Part shown: positions 16,042 through 48,110 of the stretch, in pieces | How positions within the stretch are numbered: position 1 is the stretch's first letter | How the letters are laid out: every line of letters begins with the position of its first letter | Assembly: GCF_000970685.1 (NCBI RefSeq) | Contig: NZ_LAJB01000003.1 | Span: 248,001-312,000 of the forward strand | Source of the DNA: Domibacillus indicus | GTDB taxonomy: Bacteria > Bacillota > Bacilli > Bacillales > Domibacillaceae | Length of the DNA: 64,000 nucleotides | Direction of reading: 5' to 3' | The notes under the pieces: generated by a model | Database searches by the model: none | The model's input: the letters and a program-made list of their open reading frames with translations, nothing else | Told to the model about the DNA's origin: nothing | Made by a program: the position numbers and the translations under genes

Positions 16042-16980
16042 TTATTGCTTTTCATCAATACCCGCCTCGTTAATGGCACCCGCCAGTTTATCCGTGAATT
16101 CCTGTGCGGCATTCACGCCCATCCGTTTTAACCGGAAATTCATGGCCGCTACCTCAATAATAACAGCCAGGTTTCGGCCAGGACGAACCGGCAGTGTGAT
16201 CTTGGTAATTTCCGAATCCAGAATTGGCAGCTTATCTTCTTCAATGCCGAGACGGTCATATTGCTTCTCCGGATCCCAGAGCTCAAGATTCACATTTAAC
16301 GTAATGATTTTATGCGAGCGAACCGCCCCCGCTCCAAACAGCGTCATGACATTAATAATGCCCAGTCCGCGGATTTCAAGCAAATGCTCAATTAATTCCG
16401 GCGAGTTTCCGACCAGGCGGCCGATGTCTTCCTGACGGATTTCTACACAGTCATCTGCTACAAGACGGTGGCCTCTTTTAACAAGCTCCAGGGCAGTTTC
16501 ACTTTTCCCGACCCCGCTCTGGCCTGTAATAAGCACACCAATGCCATAAATATCGACCAGGACACCATGAATCGCTGTGGTTGGCGCCAGCATCGACTCT
16601 AAATAGTTTGTCAGCTGGCTTGAAAATTTGGTAGTGGTCATTTTTGAACGCATAACCGGCACCGAATACGCTTCTGACGCTTCAATCAATTCAACAGGAA
16701 CACTCAAGTTGCGTGAGACAATAATGGCAGGCGTTTCATAATCGCACAGCTTATCCATCCGCTCTTTTTTTTCACTTGGGCTGAGCCGTTGAAAAAAAGA
16801 CAGCTCTGTCATCCCGATTAACTGCACGCGTTCAGCTGGATAATAATCAAAGAATCCGGCGATTTCCAAACCCGGCCGTGATAAATCACTTATTTTTATC
16901 GGGCGGTGAAGACCTTCTTCACCGCTGACAAGCTCTAAATCAAATTTTTCTAAAAGATCAACTGCACGCACTTTTGGCAT
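16042..16980 (-). CDS. hprK: HprK, HPr(Ser) kinase/phosphorylase
   Basis: This 312-residue enzyme phosphorylates HPr on Ser46 with ATP or PPi and reverses this by phosphorolysis, setting CcpA-dependent catabolite control. Walker A is GQSGVGKSE near residue 154, followed by [11 protein letters not shown]. The C-terminal family signature is seen as [18 protein letters not shown]. The start at 16980 follows AGGAGGT by six bases; a further 63 in-frame codons upstream overlap the divergent amidase gene and are not family-like. Confidence 0.95.
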
Positions 16981-17104
16981 TGTGCTACCTCCTCTTCTCG
17001 CTAAACGAATTGCCTCCATTGTACCATGTTTCCACACAAAACTGCTGCTTCGGTATCGATTTTCACAGACAGGCTGTACGTAATGAAAGAAAGGAGGAAA
17101 ACGA

Positions 17105-17635
17105 ATGAAAATAGCGATTGATGCGGGACATGGCTGGAATACGCCGGGAAAACAAACGCCGGAAGGCATGAAAGAATTTGAGTTTAACCGGGCAACCGCT
17201 CTTTTTCTGCGTGAACAGCTGACAGCAGAGGTTCTCTTTGTTCATCATGACCAAAGAGATGTGCCGTTAGCGGAACGCGTTCAAAAAGCAAACACATCCG
17301 GTATCGGCTTATACGTATCCATTCACGCGAATGCATTTGGCGAAGGATGGTCCGAACCGAATGGAATTGAAACATATGTGCATTCTTCCCGGCCGGCGAA
17401 AGCACTCGCCATTGCTTTAGCCGTCCAGCAGGAGCTGGTCCAAAAAACCGGCCGGCGCGACCGGGGTGTGAAAACAGCTGATTTCTATGTACTTCGTAAA
17501 ACAAACATGCCCGCTCTTTTAATTGAAGCCGGCTTTATGACGAACCGGGAAGAAGCCGCACTGCTGGCCACTGCTGCTTATCGGAAAACATGTGCAGCTG
17601 CGATCGCTTCCGCAATCCAAAAAACATGTTTGTAA
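17105..17635 (+). CDS. Amidase_3-family N-acetylmuramoyl-L-alanine amidase
   Basis: This 176-residue single-domain amidase has the zinc ligands His9 (IDAGHG), a Glu in MKEFEFN near residue 25, and a His in SIHANAFG near 76. The catalytic Glu is in [10 protein letters not shown] near 140. It would cleave the lactyl-L-Ala bond of peptidoglycan. No signal peptide, membrane anchor or wall-binding domain is seen, so it may act after lysis, in the mother cell, or be exported in another way. It is divergent from hprK with a strong GAAAGGAGG site. Confidence 0.85.
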
Positions 17636-17643
17636 TCATAAAA

Positions 17644-17673
17644 AAACAGGAAGCAATTCGATGCTTCCTGTTT
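17644..17673. terminator. Bidirectional terminator between the amidase and yvlD
   Basis: Perfect 11-base stem AAACAGGAAGC and complement with an eight-base loop. T runs occur on both strands, serving the plus-strand amidase and the minus-strand yvlD. Confidence 0.8.
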
Positions 17674-17739
17674 CAGGCTGTTAATAAACGCCCGCTTTCA
17701 ATCAGTCTGAGTTCTAGCTCTGTTCACACGCTCAAACAT

Positions 17740-18090
17740 TTACTTTCTCCGAATAATGGTCATCTGCAGAATCATATTAACCAGTGCCATAATAACCGCA
17801 ATGACCAGGGCGAGGCCAAAGCTTTCAATTTCGAAGGCGTAGCCCATAATGCTGTCGGTCATCAGCAGGGTAAGAGCATTAATGACAAATAAAAAGAGAC
17901 CGAGTGAGATCATGGTGATCGGCAGTGTTAAAACAACGAGCACCGGCCGGACAATCAAATTTAAAACCGATAGAACAAGGCTGGCAATAACAGCATAAAA
18001 GAAGCTGTCCACATGTAAACCTGGAAAATAGCCGGCCAGTGCAATAAACAACACTGCATTAATGAGCACGCCCAACATCCAGCCCATCAT
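17740..18090 (-). CDS. yvlD: YvlD, phage-holin-like four-helix membrane protein
   Basis: This 116-residue protein consists of four hydrophobic helices, as in the phage holin family IV/YvlD group. SLVLSVLNLIVRPVLVVLTLP is the conserved central block. In B. subtilis the yvlABCD genes belong to the sigma-W and envelope-stress group; here yvlB lies 22 bases upstream and yvlC (PspC type) is missing between them. MM at the start leaves a one-codon ambiguity. Confidence 0.85.
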   Translation of the reverse strand: MMGWMLGVLINAVLFIALAGYFPGLHVDSFFYAVIASLVLSVLNLIVRPVLVVLTLPITMISLGLFLFVINALTLLMTDSIMGYAFEIESFGLALVIAVIMALVNMILQMTIIRRK

Positions 18091-18112: not shown

Positions 18113-19312
18113 TTACATTCCTGATTCAAATGAATCACCGGAATCGGAACCTGTCGCAGGCGGTTCCTGGCGTAAAGAGGACATCCGTAATGTAACAGAG
18201 CCTGTTTTCGTTTCTGCGTCGATGACAAGCTGGCGTCCCTCCGGCTGCCCGGCACTTTCAAATTTCAATGACTTTTGAATGCGCTCGTCTTTTTCCGTTA
18301 CGCTGGCCATCCCGGTCTCCGGAAGAGTTAAACGGCCTGCAGTTGTCCGCATTTCTCCTTTTACCGCCAGTTCGCCCGGCACATATAATTCAATATTTCC
18401 GGTCATGGATTCTGCACGAACCGCTTCTGCCTGATCCGCTTTTGCATCGTATAATAAATTTCCGTTAAACGTCTGCAAATCTGCGAAACGATACGTACCT
18501 ACCATATGAATAGCACCGTTAAACGTGTTGAGTTCAGCCCGTTCCCCTTCACAATCAATAATACGGATTGGACCATTTCCTGTTTCGGCGTCAATCGTTG
18601 TAATCTGGCTGTTTTTCAACTCAATTTTCCCGTTCCCGGACCGTACTTCACATTTTTCCGCTTTCACATCACGCATATCAAATGCACCGTTAAACAGCTT
18701 CACTGAAATATCATCTAATTGACGGGAAGGAATATAAAGCGTTACATCAGTTTTCATCAGTTTCAGACCGACCGAGAAAGACAGTTTATCTTCGCGTGCA
18801 TAAAAGATACTGTTTTTTAAGAAAGACTCTCTGGCTTCTTCTTCTGTCGCTGCACCAAAGACTTTGACCTGGCATTCCGCTTTTACTCCTTCGCCATCCC
18901 ATGGACGAATCGTCACTGCCCCGTTAGCTGTTTCAAGCTTCAGGCGGCCTGGCTGTACTTCCGGCTCATGAAATACATGCGTAAACTCTGCTCCTTTGCC
19001 GACAAACGGTACTTCCACATCTTTTAAACGCTGCACAGCTGACTGCATAAATTCAAACAATTTATCTTTTGACTGAGTGACGGTTTCTGCTTTCGGACGC
19101 TGGCCGGCCAGTTTCTGGCCGAATTTCTCAAGCTCTTCAAAAAGGCTGCCAAAGCCTTTTGAGCTTTCAGAGGATTTTGCTGACGAAGAGTGGGTATCTG
19201 CGTTTGAAGATGTACCGTTTTTCTCCAGTGCCTCAATCAATTTCACTGCTTCATCCGCTGAAATAATACCCGACTCCACCATTTTTAAAATTCGCAGTTT
19301 TTCTTCGCTCAT
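18113..19312 (-). CDS. yvlB: YvlB, DUF4097 beta-helix-like protein
   Basis: This 399-residue protein has an N-terminal SHOCT-like helical unit (RILKMVESGIISADEAVKLIEALEKNG) and a Ser-rich linker near residues 35-60. From about 110 there are repeated beta-strand units of the DUF4097 type (NGAVTI, NGKIEL, NGPIRI, NGAIHM, NGNLLY, TGNIEL). No signal peptide is seen. It probably acts with membrane partners in envelope stress, judged by its pairing with yvlD. GGAGGT precedes the ATG. It is a little longer than B. subtilis YvlB. Confidence 0.85.
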   Translation of the reverse strand: MSEEKLRILKMVESGIISADEAVKLIEALEKNGTSSNADTHSSSAKSSESSKGFGSLFEELEKFGQKLAGQRPKAETVTQSKDKLFEFMQSAVQRLKDVEVPFVGKGAEFTHVFHEPEVQPGRLKLETANGAVTIRPWDGEGVKAECQVKVFGAATEEEARESFLKNSIFYAREDKLSFSVGLKLMKTDVTLYIPSRQLDDISVKLFNGAFDMRDVKAEKCEVRSGNGKIELKNSQITTIDAETGNGPIRIIDCEGERAELNTFNGAIHMVGTYRFADLQTFNGNLLYDAKADQAEAVRAESMTGNIELYVPGELAVKGEMRTTAGRLTLPETGMASVTEKDERIQKSLKFESAGQPEGRQLVIDAETKTGSVTLRMSSLRQEPPATGSDSGDSFESGM

Positions 19313-31958: not shown

Positions 31959-32843
31959 TTATACATTCAAAAAGCGTCTGACTGAAATAAAGCTGCCCCA
32001 AATGCCAATAAAAACAGCAATAACAAGCATAAGAAGCGTCACTGGCACTATCAGTGGAATGTAGCCGATAAAGTCAATAAAATGAGAAGCAAACCTCTCT
32101 GAAGCTTCCTGCTCCGCATAGTAATAGCCGACTGCAATGGCGGCAATCGGGATAATAGAGCCAAGCAATCCGATCCACAATCCTTCCAGTAAAAACGGCC
32201 AGCGAATAAACCAGTTTGTTGCACCGACGAGCTTCATAATTTCAATTTCTTTCCGGCGGGCAAAAATAGTGATTTTAATTGTATTCGAGATTAAAAACAT
32301 AGCTGTAAATAAAAGGCCGGCTACCAGAATCATTCCGATATTGCGGGCTGTTTTCATAAAGCTGAATAAATTTTCGACTTTTCCTTCTCCATACACCGCT
32401 TTTTCTGTCTGGGAAAACTGCTCAATTTTCCGGGCCGCATCCGGTGTATCCTGAGGGCGAGCTGTTTTCACAATAAACACATCGTACAGCGGATTGCTTT
32501 GTTCAAACAAAGTATAGTCGCTGCCCATATCGTTGATCAGATTTTGCAGCTCCTGTTCCTTGGAGGAATATTCGACGCCTTCTACCTCGGGGAGGTTTTC
32601 AATTTGGGCCTTCAGCTGATCCTTCTCCGCTTCTGTCGTCTCCAGCTTCACATGAACACGCACTTCTACATCATTTTCAATATCGGTGCCGATTTTATTT
32701 AAATTAAGCATGATAACAAGGAAAATACCTGTTAACATAAGCGTCACTGTAACAGCAGATACGGATGCAAAGGTCATCCAGCCGTTGCGGCGGAGATTTT
32801 TAAAGCTCTCTCTGAAATGGCGGCGCAGCGTTCTAGGCTTCAT
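31959..32843 (-). CDS. ftsX: FtsX, cell-division ABC transporter-like membrane subunit
   Basis: This 294-residue protein begins MKPRTLRRHFRESFKNLRRNG, with membrane segments near residues 25-48, 170-195, 220-245 and 265-288. The extracellular domain (about 50-165) contacts the wall hydrolase. With FtsE it turns ATP hydrolysis into hydrolase activation. The ATG at 32843 lies within the end of ftsE (11-base overlap) behind GGGGTGAG, which implies coupled translation; the longer reading from 32897 is rejected. Confidence 0.93.
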   Translation of the reverse strand: MKPRTLRRHFRESFKNLRRNGWMTFASVSAVTVTLMLTGIFLVIMLNLNKIGTDIENDVEVRVHVKLETTEAEKDQLKAQIENLPEVEGVEYSSKEQELQNLINDMGSDYTLFEQSNPLYDVFIVKTARPQDTPDAARKIEQFSQTEKAVYGEGKVENLFSFMKTARNIGMILVAGLLFTAMFLISNTIKITIFARRKEIEIMKLVGATNWFIRWPFLLEGLWIGLLGSIIPIAAIAVGYYYAEQEASERFASHFIDFIGYIPLIVPVTLLMLVIAVFIGIWGSFISVRRFLNV

Positions 32844-35316: not shown

Positions 35317-36332
35317 GCTGATTCCTCTCCTTCTGCTTCAATGGATACAGCGTGGGCAATACAAGGAATGCTTTCTTTCTGCTGATACGTAAGCGGCGAT
35401 AAAAGAGCGCCCGTGGCGACCACAAGCATCCGTTTTATTTCCCCTTTTTGCATTTGATTTAATAAATGTCCATATGCTACAACGGCTGAACAGCCTGCAC
35501 CACTTCCGCCCGAGAAAACCGGCTGGCCTTTTCGGTAAATCATAACTCCGCAGTCTTTATATTCAGTGTTCTGGATAGGGGTATTGTTTTTTTCAAACAA
35601 GTCGAGTGAAATATTATGCCCGATTTCACCCAGATCCCCGGTAACAATCAAATCATAGTAAGACGGATCAATATTTCGATCTGTCAAATGAGCTTCAATT
35701 GTGTCTACGGCCGCCGGCGCCATCGCCCCGCCCATGTTGAAGGGATCCGTTAAGCCCAGGTCGATGACGCGCCCGATTGTAGCGGAAGTTACACGCGGCC
35801 CGCTTCCTTCACTGCTTAACAGTGCCGCTCCTGCCCCGGTTATGGTCCACTGCGATGTCGGCGGCTTTTGCCCGCCATACTCAGTCGGATACCGGAACTG
35901 CTTTTCAACAGCCGCATTATGGCTTGATGCGCCGGTCAGCACATACTTCGCTCCCTGCCCGTTAATGATCATGGCAGCAAGGGCAAGCCCCTCCATAGAT
36001 GTCGAGCAGGCGCCGAACAAGCCAAGATACGGAGCGCCGATTGTCCGGCAGGCAAGGCTCGTCGGGGTAATCTGGTTAATAAGGTCGCCCCCTAGAATAA
36101 ACTGCACCTGCTCTTTTTGAAGCCCGCCTTTTTCGATTGCTTTGGTGCATGCTTCCTCAAATAAAAGCCGGTGCGCTTTTTCATACGAGTCCTGTCCAAT
36201 CCATAAATCCTCATGAAGAATATCAAAATCGTCCGACAGCATGCCCGCTGCTTCAAAGGGCCCTCCGACTGTTCCTGCTGCCAGTATGACTGGTTTGCGG
36301 TCAAATTCCCATGTACGATGTCCAGCCAGCAT
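35313..36332 (-). CDS. spoVAD: SpoVAD, stage V sporulation protein AD
   Basis: This 339-residue thiolase-fold protein binds dipicolinic acid for uptake into the forespore. Conserved blocks are seen: LFGACSTSMEG near residue 106, SSHNAAVEKQFRYPTEYGGQKP near 143 (quoted here as FRYPTEYGGQ), MAPAAVDTI near 205 and ATGALLSP near 310. The ATG at 36332 overlaps the spoVAC stop by one base (TAATG) behind GGGGTGG. Here spoVAC-spoVAD is followed by DUF1657, with no spoVAEb. Confidence 0.93.
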   Translation of the reverse strand: MLAGHRTWEFDRKPVILAAGTVGGPFEAAGMLSDDFDILHEDLWIGQDSYEKAHRLLFEEACTKAIEKGGLQKEQVQFILGGDLINQITPTSLACRTIGAPYLGLFGACSTSMEGLALAAMIINGQGAKYVLTGASSHNAAVEKQFRYPTEYGGQKPPTSQWTITGAGAALLSSEGSGPRVTSATIGRVIDLGLTDPFNMGGAMAPAAVDTIEAHLTDRNIDPSYYDLIVTGDLGEIGHNISLDLFEKNNTPIQNTEYKDCGVMIYRKGQPVFSGGSGAGCSAVVAYGHLLNQMQKGEIKRMLVVATGALLSPLTYQQKESIPCIAHAVSIEAEGEESA

Positions 36333-43132: not shown

Positions 43133-43684
43133 TTATGTTGTTTCAATTAAGCCGTATTTTCCATCGCTTCGTTTATACACAATATTTGTTCCGTCTGTTT
43201 CGGCATCTGTGTAAATAAAGAAATCGTGGCCCAGCAGATTCATTTGAAGAATTGCTTCCTCGGAATCCATTGGTTTTAAATCGAACTGCTTGGTACGCAC
43301 CACTTGCAGCTCTTCGTTTTCATCATCCGCTGCCCCGTTGTCAGCCTGCACCGCAAAATAATCCTGCGGCTCGCCTTTTTCACGGAATTTGCGGTTTACT
43401 TTTGTTTTATGCTTGCGGATCTGGCGCTCCAATTTATCTGTAATCAAGTCGACAGCTGCGTATAAGTCTGGATTGCGTTCCTCAGCGCGGAGCACGAGAT
43501 TTTTCATTGGAATCGTTACTTCCACTTTTGCATTTGTGTTATTGTACGTTTTTAAATTAACATGCACATTCGCATTAGGAGTTTCGGTGAAATAACGCTC
43601 CAGCTTGCTAATCTTCTTTTCAACGTGCTCACGGATTGCTGGAGTAACTTCAATGTTTTCACCACGAATGTTATAATTCATCAT
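43133..43684 (-). CDS. hpf: Hpf, long-form ribosome hibernation promoting factor (YvyD)
   Basis: This 183-residue protein has an N-terminal S30AE domain (residues 2-100, [19 protein letters not shown] in part) and a C-terminal dimerisation domain ([20 protein letters not shown] near 130, quoted in part). Long Hpf joins two 70S ribosomes into inactive 100S dimers in stationary phase. The first of two adjacent ATGs (43684) lies six bases from GGAGGAG. Overlapping sigma-B and sigma-H type promoters precede it. Confidence 0.95.
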
Positions 43685-43722
43685 GCGGAACTCCTCCTTC
43701 AACTAATTGCTATAATCTTAAT

Positions 43723-43787: not shown

Positions 43788-44144
43788 TTATTTTAATATG
43801 CTTTCTTTCCATGCATATAACAATTCGTGTAAAAGCAATAACGCCTCTTCACAACTTTGTTCATTTTTTTCAATGTTTGCTTCAATCAAGAGGTTGTTTA
43901 CATGCAAATAAGCATGCACGGCTGCCTCCCCTTCTTTTATTTCTTGATTAATAAAAGGAATGATTTCCAGCAAATATTGCTGCGCTTTTTGAAAGAAGTC
44001 ATTTCTTTCAAAATGGCCTCTGGCTGCCTTTGCTTTTTTCAGGGAAAGAATACTCTCCTGAAGCAGCATAATTTCAATCTCAGCAGGAGAGGCAGTTGAA
44101 ATGAACTGCTTTCTGTATTCTCGCTTCGCTTCATTTACATTCAT
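43788..44144 (-). CDS. FliS-like paralogue, probable flagellin chaperone
   Basis: This 118-residue all-helical protein has the FliS entry motif STASPAEIEIMLLQESI, parallel to TTASPGELTLMLYNGCI in the FliS encoded at 45414-45818. Overall it is diverged and lacks the classical N-terminal Tyr-rich stretch. FliS caps the C-terminal helix of flagellin until export. Its gene is divergent from a flagellin paralogue only 97 bases away, so the two are probably dedicated partners. The start at 44144 has AAGGAAGTGGAG upstream. Confidence 0.65.
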   Translation of the reverse strand: MNVNEAKREYRKQFISTASPAEIEIMLLQESILSLKKAKAARGHFERNDFFQKAQQYLLEIIPFINQEIKEGEAAVHAYLHVNNLLIEANIEKNEQSCEEALLLLHELLYAWKESILK

Positions 44145-44176
44145 ATACTCCACTTCCTTTTTATACCGTCCATATA

Positions 44177-44203
44177 TTAACATTAAGCAAATGAAACCGA
44201 TAT
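44177..44203 (+). promoter_or_regulatory. Sigma-D-like promoter of the flagellin paralogue
   Basis: TTAA, 15 bases, ACCGATAT; consensus is TAAA-N15-GCCGATAT. The same boxes and spacing precede flaG at 48084-48110. Confidence 0.7.
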
Positions 44204-44241
44204 AACAATAGACTATACATAACGATAGAGGGTGAATAAGA

Positions 44242-45039
44242 GTGAGATTACAAAGCTTTAGTTATTCAATGGCACGGTATGATCAAAACAATCTAAAAGC
44301 AAAAAAATCAATGGAAAAAATTTCAACAGGCTCCCAGATCAGCAGAGCAAGCCAAAATCCGGCAAATGTTGCTATTTCAGAAACAATTCGTGCACAGGTC
44401 AGGGGACTGGAACGCGGACAGCGCAATTTACAGGATGGCCTGTCTCTTTTGAGTGCCGCAGATGAAGGATTAAATCATGTAACCAAACAGCTTCACCGCG
44501 GATACGAATTAGCTGTTATGAGTGCAAATGACACGCTGACAGATGGAGACCGGAAAAGCGCTCAAAAAGAATTAGATGAAATAATGGACTCCATTAACGA
44601 CACGGCTGAATATTTGGAGTTTAACACGATCAATCTATTTGGTAATGACAAAGTGCTTCATCTGGCGGGAAGTGCTTCTGGAAAATCACTTTCCATTGAT
44701 CTTGAAAAGCTGAATGTTGATGCACTTGGTTTAACAGGCGCAAGTATTGAGACATCTGATGATGCGCGTGCTCTTTTTCCAAAGATCCAGGATGCCGTCT
44801 TGCAAACAACTCATCAGCTCACAAAAATAGGTTCATATTATGAGACGATTGAGCATGAAATGGAAAGAAATTCTGTTCTAGGAGAAAACCTGACCAAAGG
44901 TCTTTCAAAGATTGAAGATACACAAGTCGGCAGAGAAGTCATTGAATTGGCCATTGCCGGTATCCGCCAGCAGGCAGACCATCTTTTCATTCATGATACA
45001 AATGAATTGGCTAAAGGTGTTTTAGCGATTTTTAAATAA
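44242..45039 (+). CDS. Flagellin paralogue
   Basis: This 265-residue protein has both conserved flagellin ends. N-terminal helices read AKKSMEKISTGSQISRASQNPA near residue 22 (quoted in part) and RGLERGQRNLQDGLSLLSAADE near 54. The C-terminal helix ends LAKGVLAIFK, like VLQLLR-type flagellin ends. A short central region (about 110-190) replaces the surface D2/D3 domains. It starts with GTG behind GAGGGTG and has a sigma-D-like promoter. Housekeeping hag usually lies beyond flaG in Bacillus; this copy lies between hpf and fliT, the area of the yvzB remnant in B. subtilis. It may be a minor or alternative filament subunit. Confidence 0.8.
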   Translation: MRLQSFSYSMARYDQNNLKAKKSMEKISTGSQISRASQNPANVAISETIRAQVRGLERGQRNLQDGLSLLSAADEGLNHVTKQLHRGYELAVMSANDTLTDGDRKSAQKELDEIMDSINDTAEYLEFNTINLFGNDKVLHLAGSASGKSLSIDLEKLNVDALGLTGASIETSDDARALFPKIQDAVLQTTHQLTKIGSYYETIEHEMERNSVLGENLTKGLSKIEDTQVGREVIELAIAGIRQQADHLFIHDTNELAKGVLAIFK

Positions 45040-45041
45040 GC

Positions 45042-45070
45042 AAAAATCCGGTTTGAAAACCGGATTTTTT
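45042..45070. terminator. Bidirectional terminator between the flagellin paralogue and fliT
   Basis: Perfect 13-base stem AAAAATCCGGTTT and complement with a very small loop; the end touches the fliT stop codon. Confidence 0.85.
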
Positions 45071-45414
45071 TAATTTCGTTTATCATAAAATACGCCATCG
45101 GTTTGAAGCGATTCATATGGATTCGAATATTTGTCCATTGACTGCTTCTTTACATTGATTTCACGTAAATCTTCCTTAACCGACTGGCTCAGCTTCTGAA
45201 GACGGGTTTCAATTTCCTGGTTCATTAAGTTGATTTCACGGCCAAGCTGCTGCTCTTCTTCTGTAAAAGGAGGCTGGATACGCGGCAGAATTTCCCCGCG
45301 CTCATCCAGCAGCTTCTCTGCCTGCTCAATTTGACTGTCACGATCCTGATTGGCTGCTTCAAGCAAATCCAGCAGCCTTTTTGTCATCCTGTGACAGTCA
45401 TAAACCGGCGCCAT
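45070..45414 (-). CDS. fliT: FliT, flagellar protein
   Basis: This 114-residue, charged, helical protein lies directly after fliS (TAATG overlap), the usual place of FliT in Bacillus. FliT is the export chaperone for the filament cap FliD. Sequence conservation is low and the ribosome binding site is weak, which fits translational coupling with fliS. The call rests mainly on position, size and helix content. Confidence 0.75.
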   Translation of the reverse strand: MAPVYDCHRMTKRLLDLLEAANQDRDSQIEQAEKLLDERGEILPRIQPPFTEEEQQLGREINLMNQEIETRLQKLSQSVKEDLREINVKKQSMDKYSNPYESLQTDGVFYDKRN

Positions 45415-45818
45415 TATACCCGGCCGCCGGCACCGACTTGCTGAATGCGGCGGTTTTCCTGAATAACCTGTTTCCATGTATCCCGGAACTCTGTGACAAA
45501 TCCCTCTACTTCTTTTAAAATAGCGGGGTCATTTTTAATATTTGCCTCAACGAGCCGCTCATGAAGAAATTCATAAAGAGCCAGCATGTTCTTCGCCAGA
45601 TCTGTATCAGTTTTTAACGTAATGCTCAGCTCGCGAATAATCGCCTGTGCTTTTTGGACATTGATGTTTTTCTGCTCAATATTATTATCTGCCATCGCCC
45701 GTTCAGCCAGACGGATGAATTTAATGCATCCGTTATAAAGCATTAAGGTTAATTCTCCTGGAGACGCTGTTGTGACAGAGTTGTTTGCATATGCCTGCTG
45801 TGGATTATTAATTGCCAC
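45414..45818 (-). CDS. fliS: FliS, flagellin export chaperone
   Basis: This 134-residue protein begins MAINNPQQAYANNSVTTASPGELTLMLYNG in the classical FliS manner (Tyr near residue 10, then the ASPGEL motif). It binds the C-terminal disordered helix of flagellin in the cytoplasm. The start is GTG at 45818 behind AAGGAGTG. It lies in the flaG-fliD-fliS-fliT operon. Confidence 0.94.
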   Translation of the reverse strand: MAINNPQQAYANNSVTTASPGELTLMLYNGCIKFIRLAERAMADNNIEQKNINVQKAQAIIRELSITLKTDTDLAKNMLALYEFLHERLVEANIKNDPAILKEVEGFVTEFRDTWKQVIQENRRIQQVGAGGRV

Positions 45819-48083: not shown

Positions 48084-48110
48084 ATATCGGTCCGTTCTTT
48101 TGTTTGTTAA
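48084..48110 (-). promoter_or_regulatory. Sigma-D-like promoter of flaG-fliD-fliS-fliT
   Basis: Minus strand TTAA, 15 bases, ACCGATAT. It lies 36 bases before the flaG start and is the same in both boxes as the promoter of the flagellin paralogue. Confidence 0.7.

Follow-up and report, generated by a model that had tools for sequence, protein, structure and literature searches.

The locus lies in a 64,000 nt stretch (the window) of contig C23 of a Domibacillus genome, whose nearest named relatives are D. epiphyticus, D. aminovorans and D. robiginosus. The slot between fliT and hpf holds two genes arranged head to head. FLN (44242–45039, plus strand) has a GTG start behind the ribosome-binding site GAGGGTGA (44228–44235, plus strand) and encodes a divergent flagellin paralogue of 265 aa made up of D0 and D1 only. 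FliS2 (43788–44144, minus strand) encodes a FliS-family chaperone of 118 aa; its reading frame is open up to 44183, and the likely start is the ATG at 44144, which is preceded by AAGGAAGTGGAG. One edge of the slot is formed by hpf (43133–43702, minus strand). At the other edge lie fliT (45070–45477, minus strand) and the resident fliS (45414–45818, minus strand; Pfam FliS E = 3e-40, TIGR00208 E = 4e-42), in a gene order that is kept in relatives. The fliT product gave no match of its own in a Pfam search. A bidirectional intrinsic terminator fills the gap between FLN and fliT (45042–45069; hairpin of −13.9/−14.4 kcal/mol with a T-run on both strands), and an Rfam search of positions 36000–64000 gave no match. 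Thus, the head-to-head pair between hpf and fliT, close to the normal fliS, which had been described in an earlier note on this DNA, is borne out by the coordinates.

FLN is preceded by the sigma-D-like promoter TTAA-N15-ACCGATAT (44177–44203, plus strand; p = 0.005 relative to shuffled sequences). The promoter of flaG-fliD-fliS-fliT (48084–48110, minus strand) has the same layout, TTAA-N15-ACCGATAT, as the earlier note had claimed. The distance to the start codon is nearly fixed in relatives: the −10 element is found 36–43 nt from the FLN start codon in 11 of the 12 loci of family f1, with p values of at most 0.008 in ten of them. A FliA/SigD gene is present in the genome (256 bits, over the cut-off). 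The same note had assigned the promoter to the module as a whole, which holds for the flagellin but not here for the FliS-like gene, as we looked for a sigma-D-like promoter of FliS2 in this genome and found none (p = 0.85). In the related genus g3, back-to-back sigma-D-like promoters are seen for both FLN and FliS2 (loci L108 to L111, p = 0.002–0.008). A further sigma-D-like site at 32707 (minus strand) was dropped as a flagellar promoter; it lies inside an ftsX-like gene. Inspection of the FLN leader revealed no GGA (CsrA-type) motif, and FLN may therefore be outside the FliW-CsrA circuit. The leader of an ordinary flagellin gene of the same genome (L009:11175, minus strand) contains TAAA-N14-GACGATAA and, as CTGTTCACACGGATGTGAACAG, a hairpin of the CsrA type whose loop carries GGA.

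The FLN protein passes the cut-off of Pfam Flagellin_N (97.7 bits, cut-off 26.6, E = 8e-28) and stays below that of Flagellin_C (17.6 bits, cut-off 23.0, E = 0.0048). Its AlphaFold2 model (pLDDT 75) predicts the D0/D1 helical flagellin fold, with the D0 parts modeled at low confidence, and the best matches of the model are filament flagellins of Roseburia and Kurthia (TM about 0.8, E = 2e-10 to 1e-9). The flagellin-like nature of the 265-residue frame is thereby confirmed. The very short middle that had been singled out as a special trait is not, as the three ordinary flagellins of the genome have 270, 270 and 271 aa and all its flagellins thus fall within 265–271 aa. The ends had been described as complete, which is true of D1, which is conserved, but not of D0, both ends of which have diverged. 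In this FLN the N-terminal end has lost 3 residues that the other FLN proteins possess. At the C-terminal end the QAMLAQANQxPQ motif is lost, and D0-C is more charged and has fewer alanines than in ordinary flagellins. Because this C-terminal filament-packing motif is changed, assembly of FLN into a filament is not assured. The equivalent of Hag R57, R54 in FLN, is kept in 19 of 19 FLN proteins. Sites fixed on both sides distinguish FLN from ordinary flagellins, e.g., K51→T48, R199→L193, Q206-N207→Y200-E201 and L248→R242 (the first number refers to the ordinary flagellin of the genome and the second to FLN). Across four species FLN shows a dN of 0.11–0.25 with dS mostly saturated and is under purifying selection; the same values leave a pseudogene unsupported. 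An identity as FlgL/HAP3 was also discarded: FlgL reaches no more than 37–39 bits with the FLN profile and branches outside FLN in the tree.

FliS2 is a diverged member of its family, as first proposed. It passes the Pfam FliS profile (44.0 bits, cut-off 26.7, E = 3e-11) and misses the NCBIfam fliS equivalog TIGR00208 (31.2 bits, cut-off 53.75). The AlphaFold2 model (pLDDT 90) predicts the FliS helical-bundle fold, and its best PDB match is B. subtilis FliS 5maw_E (TM 0.83/0.87), the FliS of a flagellin-FliS crystal. The FlhA-docking Tyr10 is kept in 15 of 15 FliS2 proteins. In B. subtilis, Tyr10 together with Tyr7 is needed for recognition of FlhA by FliS, and the Y7A,Y10A variant phenocopies a deletion (PMC6070490). 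The FliS motif, GELTLMLYNGCLKF plus FRD, has been remodeled: G21, Y28, F34, F111 and D113, which do not vary among 47 ordinary FliS proteins, are kept in none of the 15 FliS2. The replacements are consistent, with Y28 changed to L or I in all 15 and F111 to L in 14. The GELTLMLYNGCLKF/FRD residues may form the client groove. FliS2 evolves fast and under looser constraint, with a dN of 0.31–0.55 and a dN/dS of about 0.24–0.26 where measurable.

Profile searches covered 24 genomes of the family, 397 sampled from the order, 41 of family f13 and 398 sampled from the class. FLN-type proteins scored 369–482 bits (one f49 member 308), and every other flagellin scored at most 250. They form a clade with 100/100 support (19 proteins tested, f49 members left out). 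FLN is thus an old flagellin lineage of single origin that evolves separately and stands well away from the ordinary ones. The 22 FLN loci (12 in f1, 6 in f13, 1 in f47 and 3 in f49) span four families and two orders, f49 belonging to the other order. FliS2 stands head to head with FLN at 12 of 12 loci in f1 and 3 of 3 in f49, and no FliS2 was found away from FLN (0 of 15 loci). The survey of relatives that the earlier note had suggested therefore shows the pair to co-occur, FLN being present at 15 of 15 FliS2 loci. The head-to-head order recurs at several chromosomal places: by fliT-hpf, by flaG, by another flagellin and near comF-flg genes. At the seven FLN loci that have no FliS2 (six in f13 and one in f47), FLN adjoins and diverges from flaG-fliD-fliS-fliT(-hpf). 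The six f13 genomes with FLN carry exactly one FliS each, and FLN is absent from all 27 f13 genomes that have two FliS. Next to fliD, L107:1939–3618 (G013) encodes a flagellin of 559 aa of the flagellinolysin type, into which a metallopeptidase-like HEMVH motif is inserted.

In a tree of FliS proteins, FliS2 (14 used) and the seven FliS of the FLN loci without FliS2 form one clade (100/94). Constraining FliS2 with the native f1 FliS was rejected (AU p = 0.02), as was a single clade of all f13 FliS (AU p = 0.012); these p values are soft, since the groups were named after earlier trees, the branches are long and the columns number 136. At the same AU p = 0.02 (post hoc groups) we reject the resident FliS as a recent source of FliS2. 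We also reject an identity with the fliS beside hag in the same genome, which falls in a separate clade. Taken together, every FLN found adjoins a FliS of one lineage (22 loci). A mirror-tree comparison of FLN with its FliS partner gave a partial r of 0.74 given Hpf (n = 16), a value that linkage and co-transfer would also yield and on which we therefore do not build.

Four f13 congener pairs with and without FLN were compared. Hpf and SecA are 85–98% and 95–99% identical within the pairs, whereas FliD is 46–51%, FliS 60–65%, FlaG 38–47% and FliT 24–30% identical. Between FLN-carrying genomes of different genera, FliD reaches 74–90% and FliS 78–92%. For example, G423 (with FLN) and G422 (without), both of one genus, share 99% in SecA and 96% in Hpf and 51% in FliD, 61% in FliS, 47% in FlaG and 30% in FliT; G423 and G035, of different genera and both with FLN, share 90% in FliD, 92% in FliS and 86% in Hpf. 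The f47 genome G069 compared with G429 gave 85% for FliD, 83% for FliS and 72% for Hpf, a comparison that includes no FLN-less f47 congener. For the four pairs, the comparison shows a pattern in which f13 congeners appear to exchange flaG-fliD-fliS-fliT as a block together with FLN. Between the f13 loci L144, L145, L146 and L151–L154 on the one hand and L191–L194 on the other, flaG-fliD-fliS-fliT is replaced blockwise, with FLN marking one allele.

Four Domibacillus genomes have the pair in the same slot and order, with 67–77% identity to FLN and 38–47% to FliS2 of the window; in seven Domibacillus genomes the fliT-hpf slot is empty. In G008 a deletion of ∼0.9 kb took most of FLN and the N-terminal half of FliS2, and scraps of both remain. 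Mapped on a tree of six neighboring proteins from 15 taxa, the presence pattern of FLN and FliS2 takes a minimum of five changes, and a loss-only reading has five joint losses of the two genes in Domibacillus. The pair had been taken to be inserted between hpf and fliT. Because the slot and order are common to four Domibacillus genomes and to other genera, and because of the scraps in G008, insertion in this genome is less likely than retention, and genes retained here and lost in congeners are the better reading. Within Domibacillus, the FLN tree joins FLN of the window to that of D. epiphyticus and FLN of D. aminovorans to that of D. robiginosus, which differs from the neighboring proteins; this discord would reflect either recombination or weak signal.

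We propose, as the probable reading of these sequences, that FLN is an auxiliary flagellin driven by sigma-D, that FliS2 is its dedicated export chaperone acting via FlhA, and that FLN is a minor or conditional subunit of the filament. Transcription of FLN by sigma-D would come late in flagellum assembly. In the cytoplasm, FliS2 would grip FLN at the C-terminal D0 segment, and its own conserved N-terminal tyrosine would make the contact with FlhA. After export, FLN would become a minor or conditional part of the flagellar filament, while the resident FliS would serve the ordinary flagellins alongside. Gene identity, folds, the FLN promoter, purifying selection, the constant company of one FliS lineage, joint loss, the kept Tyr10 and the remodeled FliS motif come out of the computations; binding of FLN to FliS2, export, assembly and a place in the filament are the steps that we infer. 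The proposal is further favored by the kept R54 of FLN, by the sigma-D gene of the genome and by changes in FLN D0-C that parallel those in the FliS2 motif. It is weakened by the fast evolution of FliS2, by the altered packing motif of FLN and by the negative search for a sigma-D-like promoter of FliS2 in this genome. A dedicated partner for export is pointed to because FLN appears to be inherited with a FliS of one lineage in two orders. The idea of a dedicated subunit and chaperone had already been raised in the earlier note; it is now strongly, if indirectly, supported by FliS2 occurring with FLN at 15 of 15 loci, by the one FliS lineage at 22 loci and by joint loss, and no longer draws on a short middle or an insertion. 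If FLN works in f13 and f47, it would not depend strictly on the specialized FliS2, because there it pairs with a FliS of canonical motif.

Other readings of the pair have to be weighed against an auxiliary flagellin with its chaperone. FLN could be a regulator and no part of the filament, one that remains in the cytoplasm or, as a decoy, diverts FliW, FliS or the CsrA circuit, with FliS2 as a cap that blocks polymerization. The more charged, alanine-poorer D0-C agrees with this, as does a leader without the CsrA-type GGA hairpin that the flagellin at L009:11175 has, and so do the consistent changes at D1-C sites (R199→L, Q206-N207→Y-E) near the FliW-protected region as known from PMC6070490. 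A pure cap, however, would make the FlhA-docking tyrosine kept in FliS2 superfluous, and the co-exchange in f13 with the cap gene fliD and export chaperone genes fits a filament role; we consider a regulatory FLN unlikely. We are as reluctant to assume that FLN is exported via the flagellum and then released in soluble form, for which the available parts of PMC5466977 provide a precedent in the non-structural FlaC of Campylobacter. The export features are kept (R54 and the FliS Tyr10) and the D0 core packing motif is changed, as this reading would have it, yet conservation extends over D1 and the D0 framework, the predicted structure resembles filament subunits, and FLN is linked in f13 to flaG-fliD-fliT.

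The bond between the two proteins could itself be doubted, since co-occurrence and correlated divergence can be explained by physical linkage and co-transfer without any direct interaction. FliS2 might then have another client or modulate the resident FliS, its adjacency to FLN being mere linkage. That FLN of f13 and f47 manages without FliS2 speaks for this, and linkage alone could account for the joint loss and the correlated trees. The head-to-head order is nevertheless kept at several different chromosomal places, and FliS2 groups with the FliS of FLN cassettes and not with the resident FliS of its own family, so that a different client for FliS2 seems improbable. Least probable by far is a decaying pair of paralogues with no present function. 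Repeated losses within the genus and the fast evolution of FliS2 might suggest decay; it is largely excluded for FLN by the 67–77% identity across species and the dN of 0.11–0.25 with mostly saturated dS, and the dN/dS of FliS2 (about 0.24–0.26) and the conserved promoter and start context argue against it as well.

The joint exchange of FLN and flaG-fliD-fliS-fliT points to sets in which the flagellin is matched to its cap and chaperones. More tentatively, and as a possibility that we would not yet call probable, FLN may mark a “filament set” that moves horizontally, a class of flagellin accompanied by a FliS of its own and, in one family, by FlaG, FliT and the cap protein FliD as well. Where the resident set stays, as in Domibacillus, FLN would keep only its FliS, which would re-specialize to form a second channel for flagellin export that chooses its clients separately. 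If this were true, a bacterium could acquire a filament or filament segment of different chemistry, either in exchange or in addition. How one export gate picks among several flagellins is an open question, and the FLN/FliS2 pair touches on it: by sequence, an extra flagellin and its own FliS share a cell with ordinary flagellins and an ordinary FliS, and relatives would run FLN on a standard-looking FliS.

Minor or specialized flagellins beside the main ones occur in Shewanella, Vibrio, Caulobacter and Campylobacter (FlaC). Like FLN they are extra D0/D1 flagellins, and filament structures of several of them are among the matches of the FLN model. We know of no minor flagellin with its own FliS lineage. 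The literature that could be consulted, which is incomplete in its coverage, held no clear case of a minor flagellin with its own FliS outside Geobacillus, and that on B. subtilis YvzB offered no useful parallel to FLN. For Azospirillum, a cluster with FliS and FliC2 appears in the available parts of PMC12826043. Compared with Hag and FliS of B. subtilis (5MAW/6GOW, PMC6070490), FLN and FliS2 are predicted to share the folds and keep the equivalents of Hag R57 and FliS Tyr10, but D0-C of FLN and the GELTLMLYNGCLKF/FRD residues of FliS2 are changed and FliS2 misses the TIGR00208 cut-off.

The closest parallels are found in Geobacillus. As far as the accessible parts of De Maayer and Cowan (2016; PMC5109656) describe it, FlaA3 is a third flagellin of 262–269 aa with a patchy distribution (six strains) in the region of the flagellin glycosylation island. 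The f13 FLN has 269 aa, lies by flaG and sugar-biosynthesis genes and occurs in 6 of 41 genomes. Its length, position and distribution make it probably FlaA3, which we set beside FLN from its description. Those parts of the paper tie no chaperone to FlaA3, unlike what we see for FLN, and report no change of flaG-fliD-fliS-fliT with it. In our genome, a likely flagellin glycosylation island lies by the ordinary flagellins (L009:297–9778), with genes for sugar biosynthesis and for a Maf-like protein of 560 aa that has an MptE-like domain. The ordinary flagellins and a third FliS lie about 10–18 kb past the right edge of the window.

The same parts of PMC5109656 describe a second fliS that adjoins flaA1 and is missing where flaA1 is missing. 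The genome analyzed here likewise has a fliS-flagellin pair outside the window (L009:17750–18196 and 16931–17746), but on the same strand and not head to head. This third FliS, of 148 aa, is encoded directly upstream of another flagellin (L009:16931–18196, about 329–330 kb on C23), after FlhB C-terminal-like and FliK-like genes; at 18234 (minus strand) it has the sigma-D-like site TTAAAACCTGGCACATTCTGCCGATAC. Similar pairs are seen in most Domibacillus, in G229 and in G349. FliS2 and this FliS3 fall in separate clades (99/99 and 100/100) of a tree that leaves the f13 flaA1-linked FliS outside, and the f13 genomes that carry FLN lack a second FliS, which also sets FLN apart from flaA1. We conclude that, according to the accessible parts of PMC5109656, a third flagellin, FlaA3 (probably of the FLN lineage), and a flaA1-linked second fliS have already been described in Geobacillus; new, as far as the literature shows, are the FLN/FliS2 pair in two orders, the single FliS lineage that accompanies FLN, and the apparent exchange of flaG-fliD-fliS-fliT.
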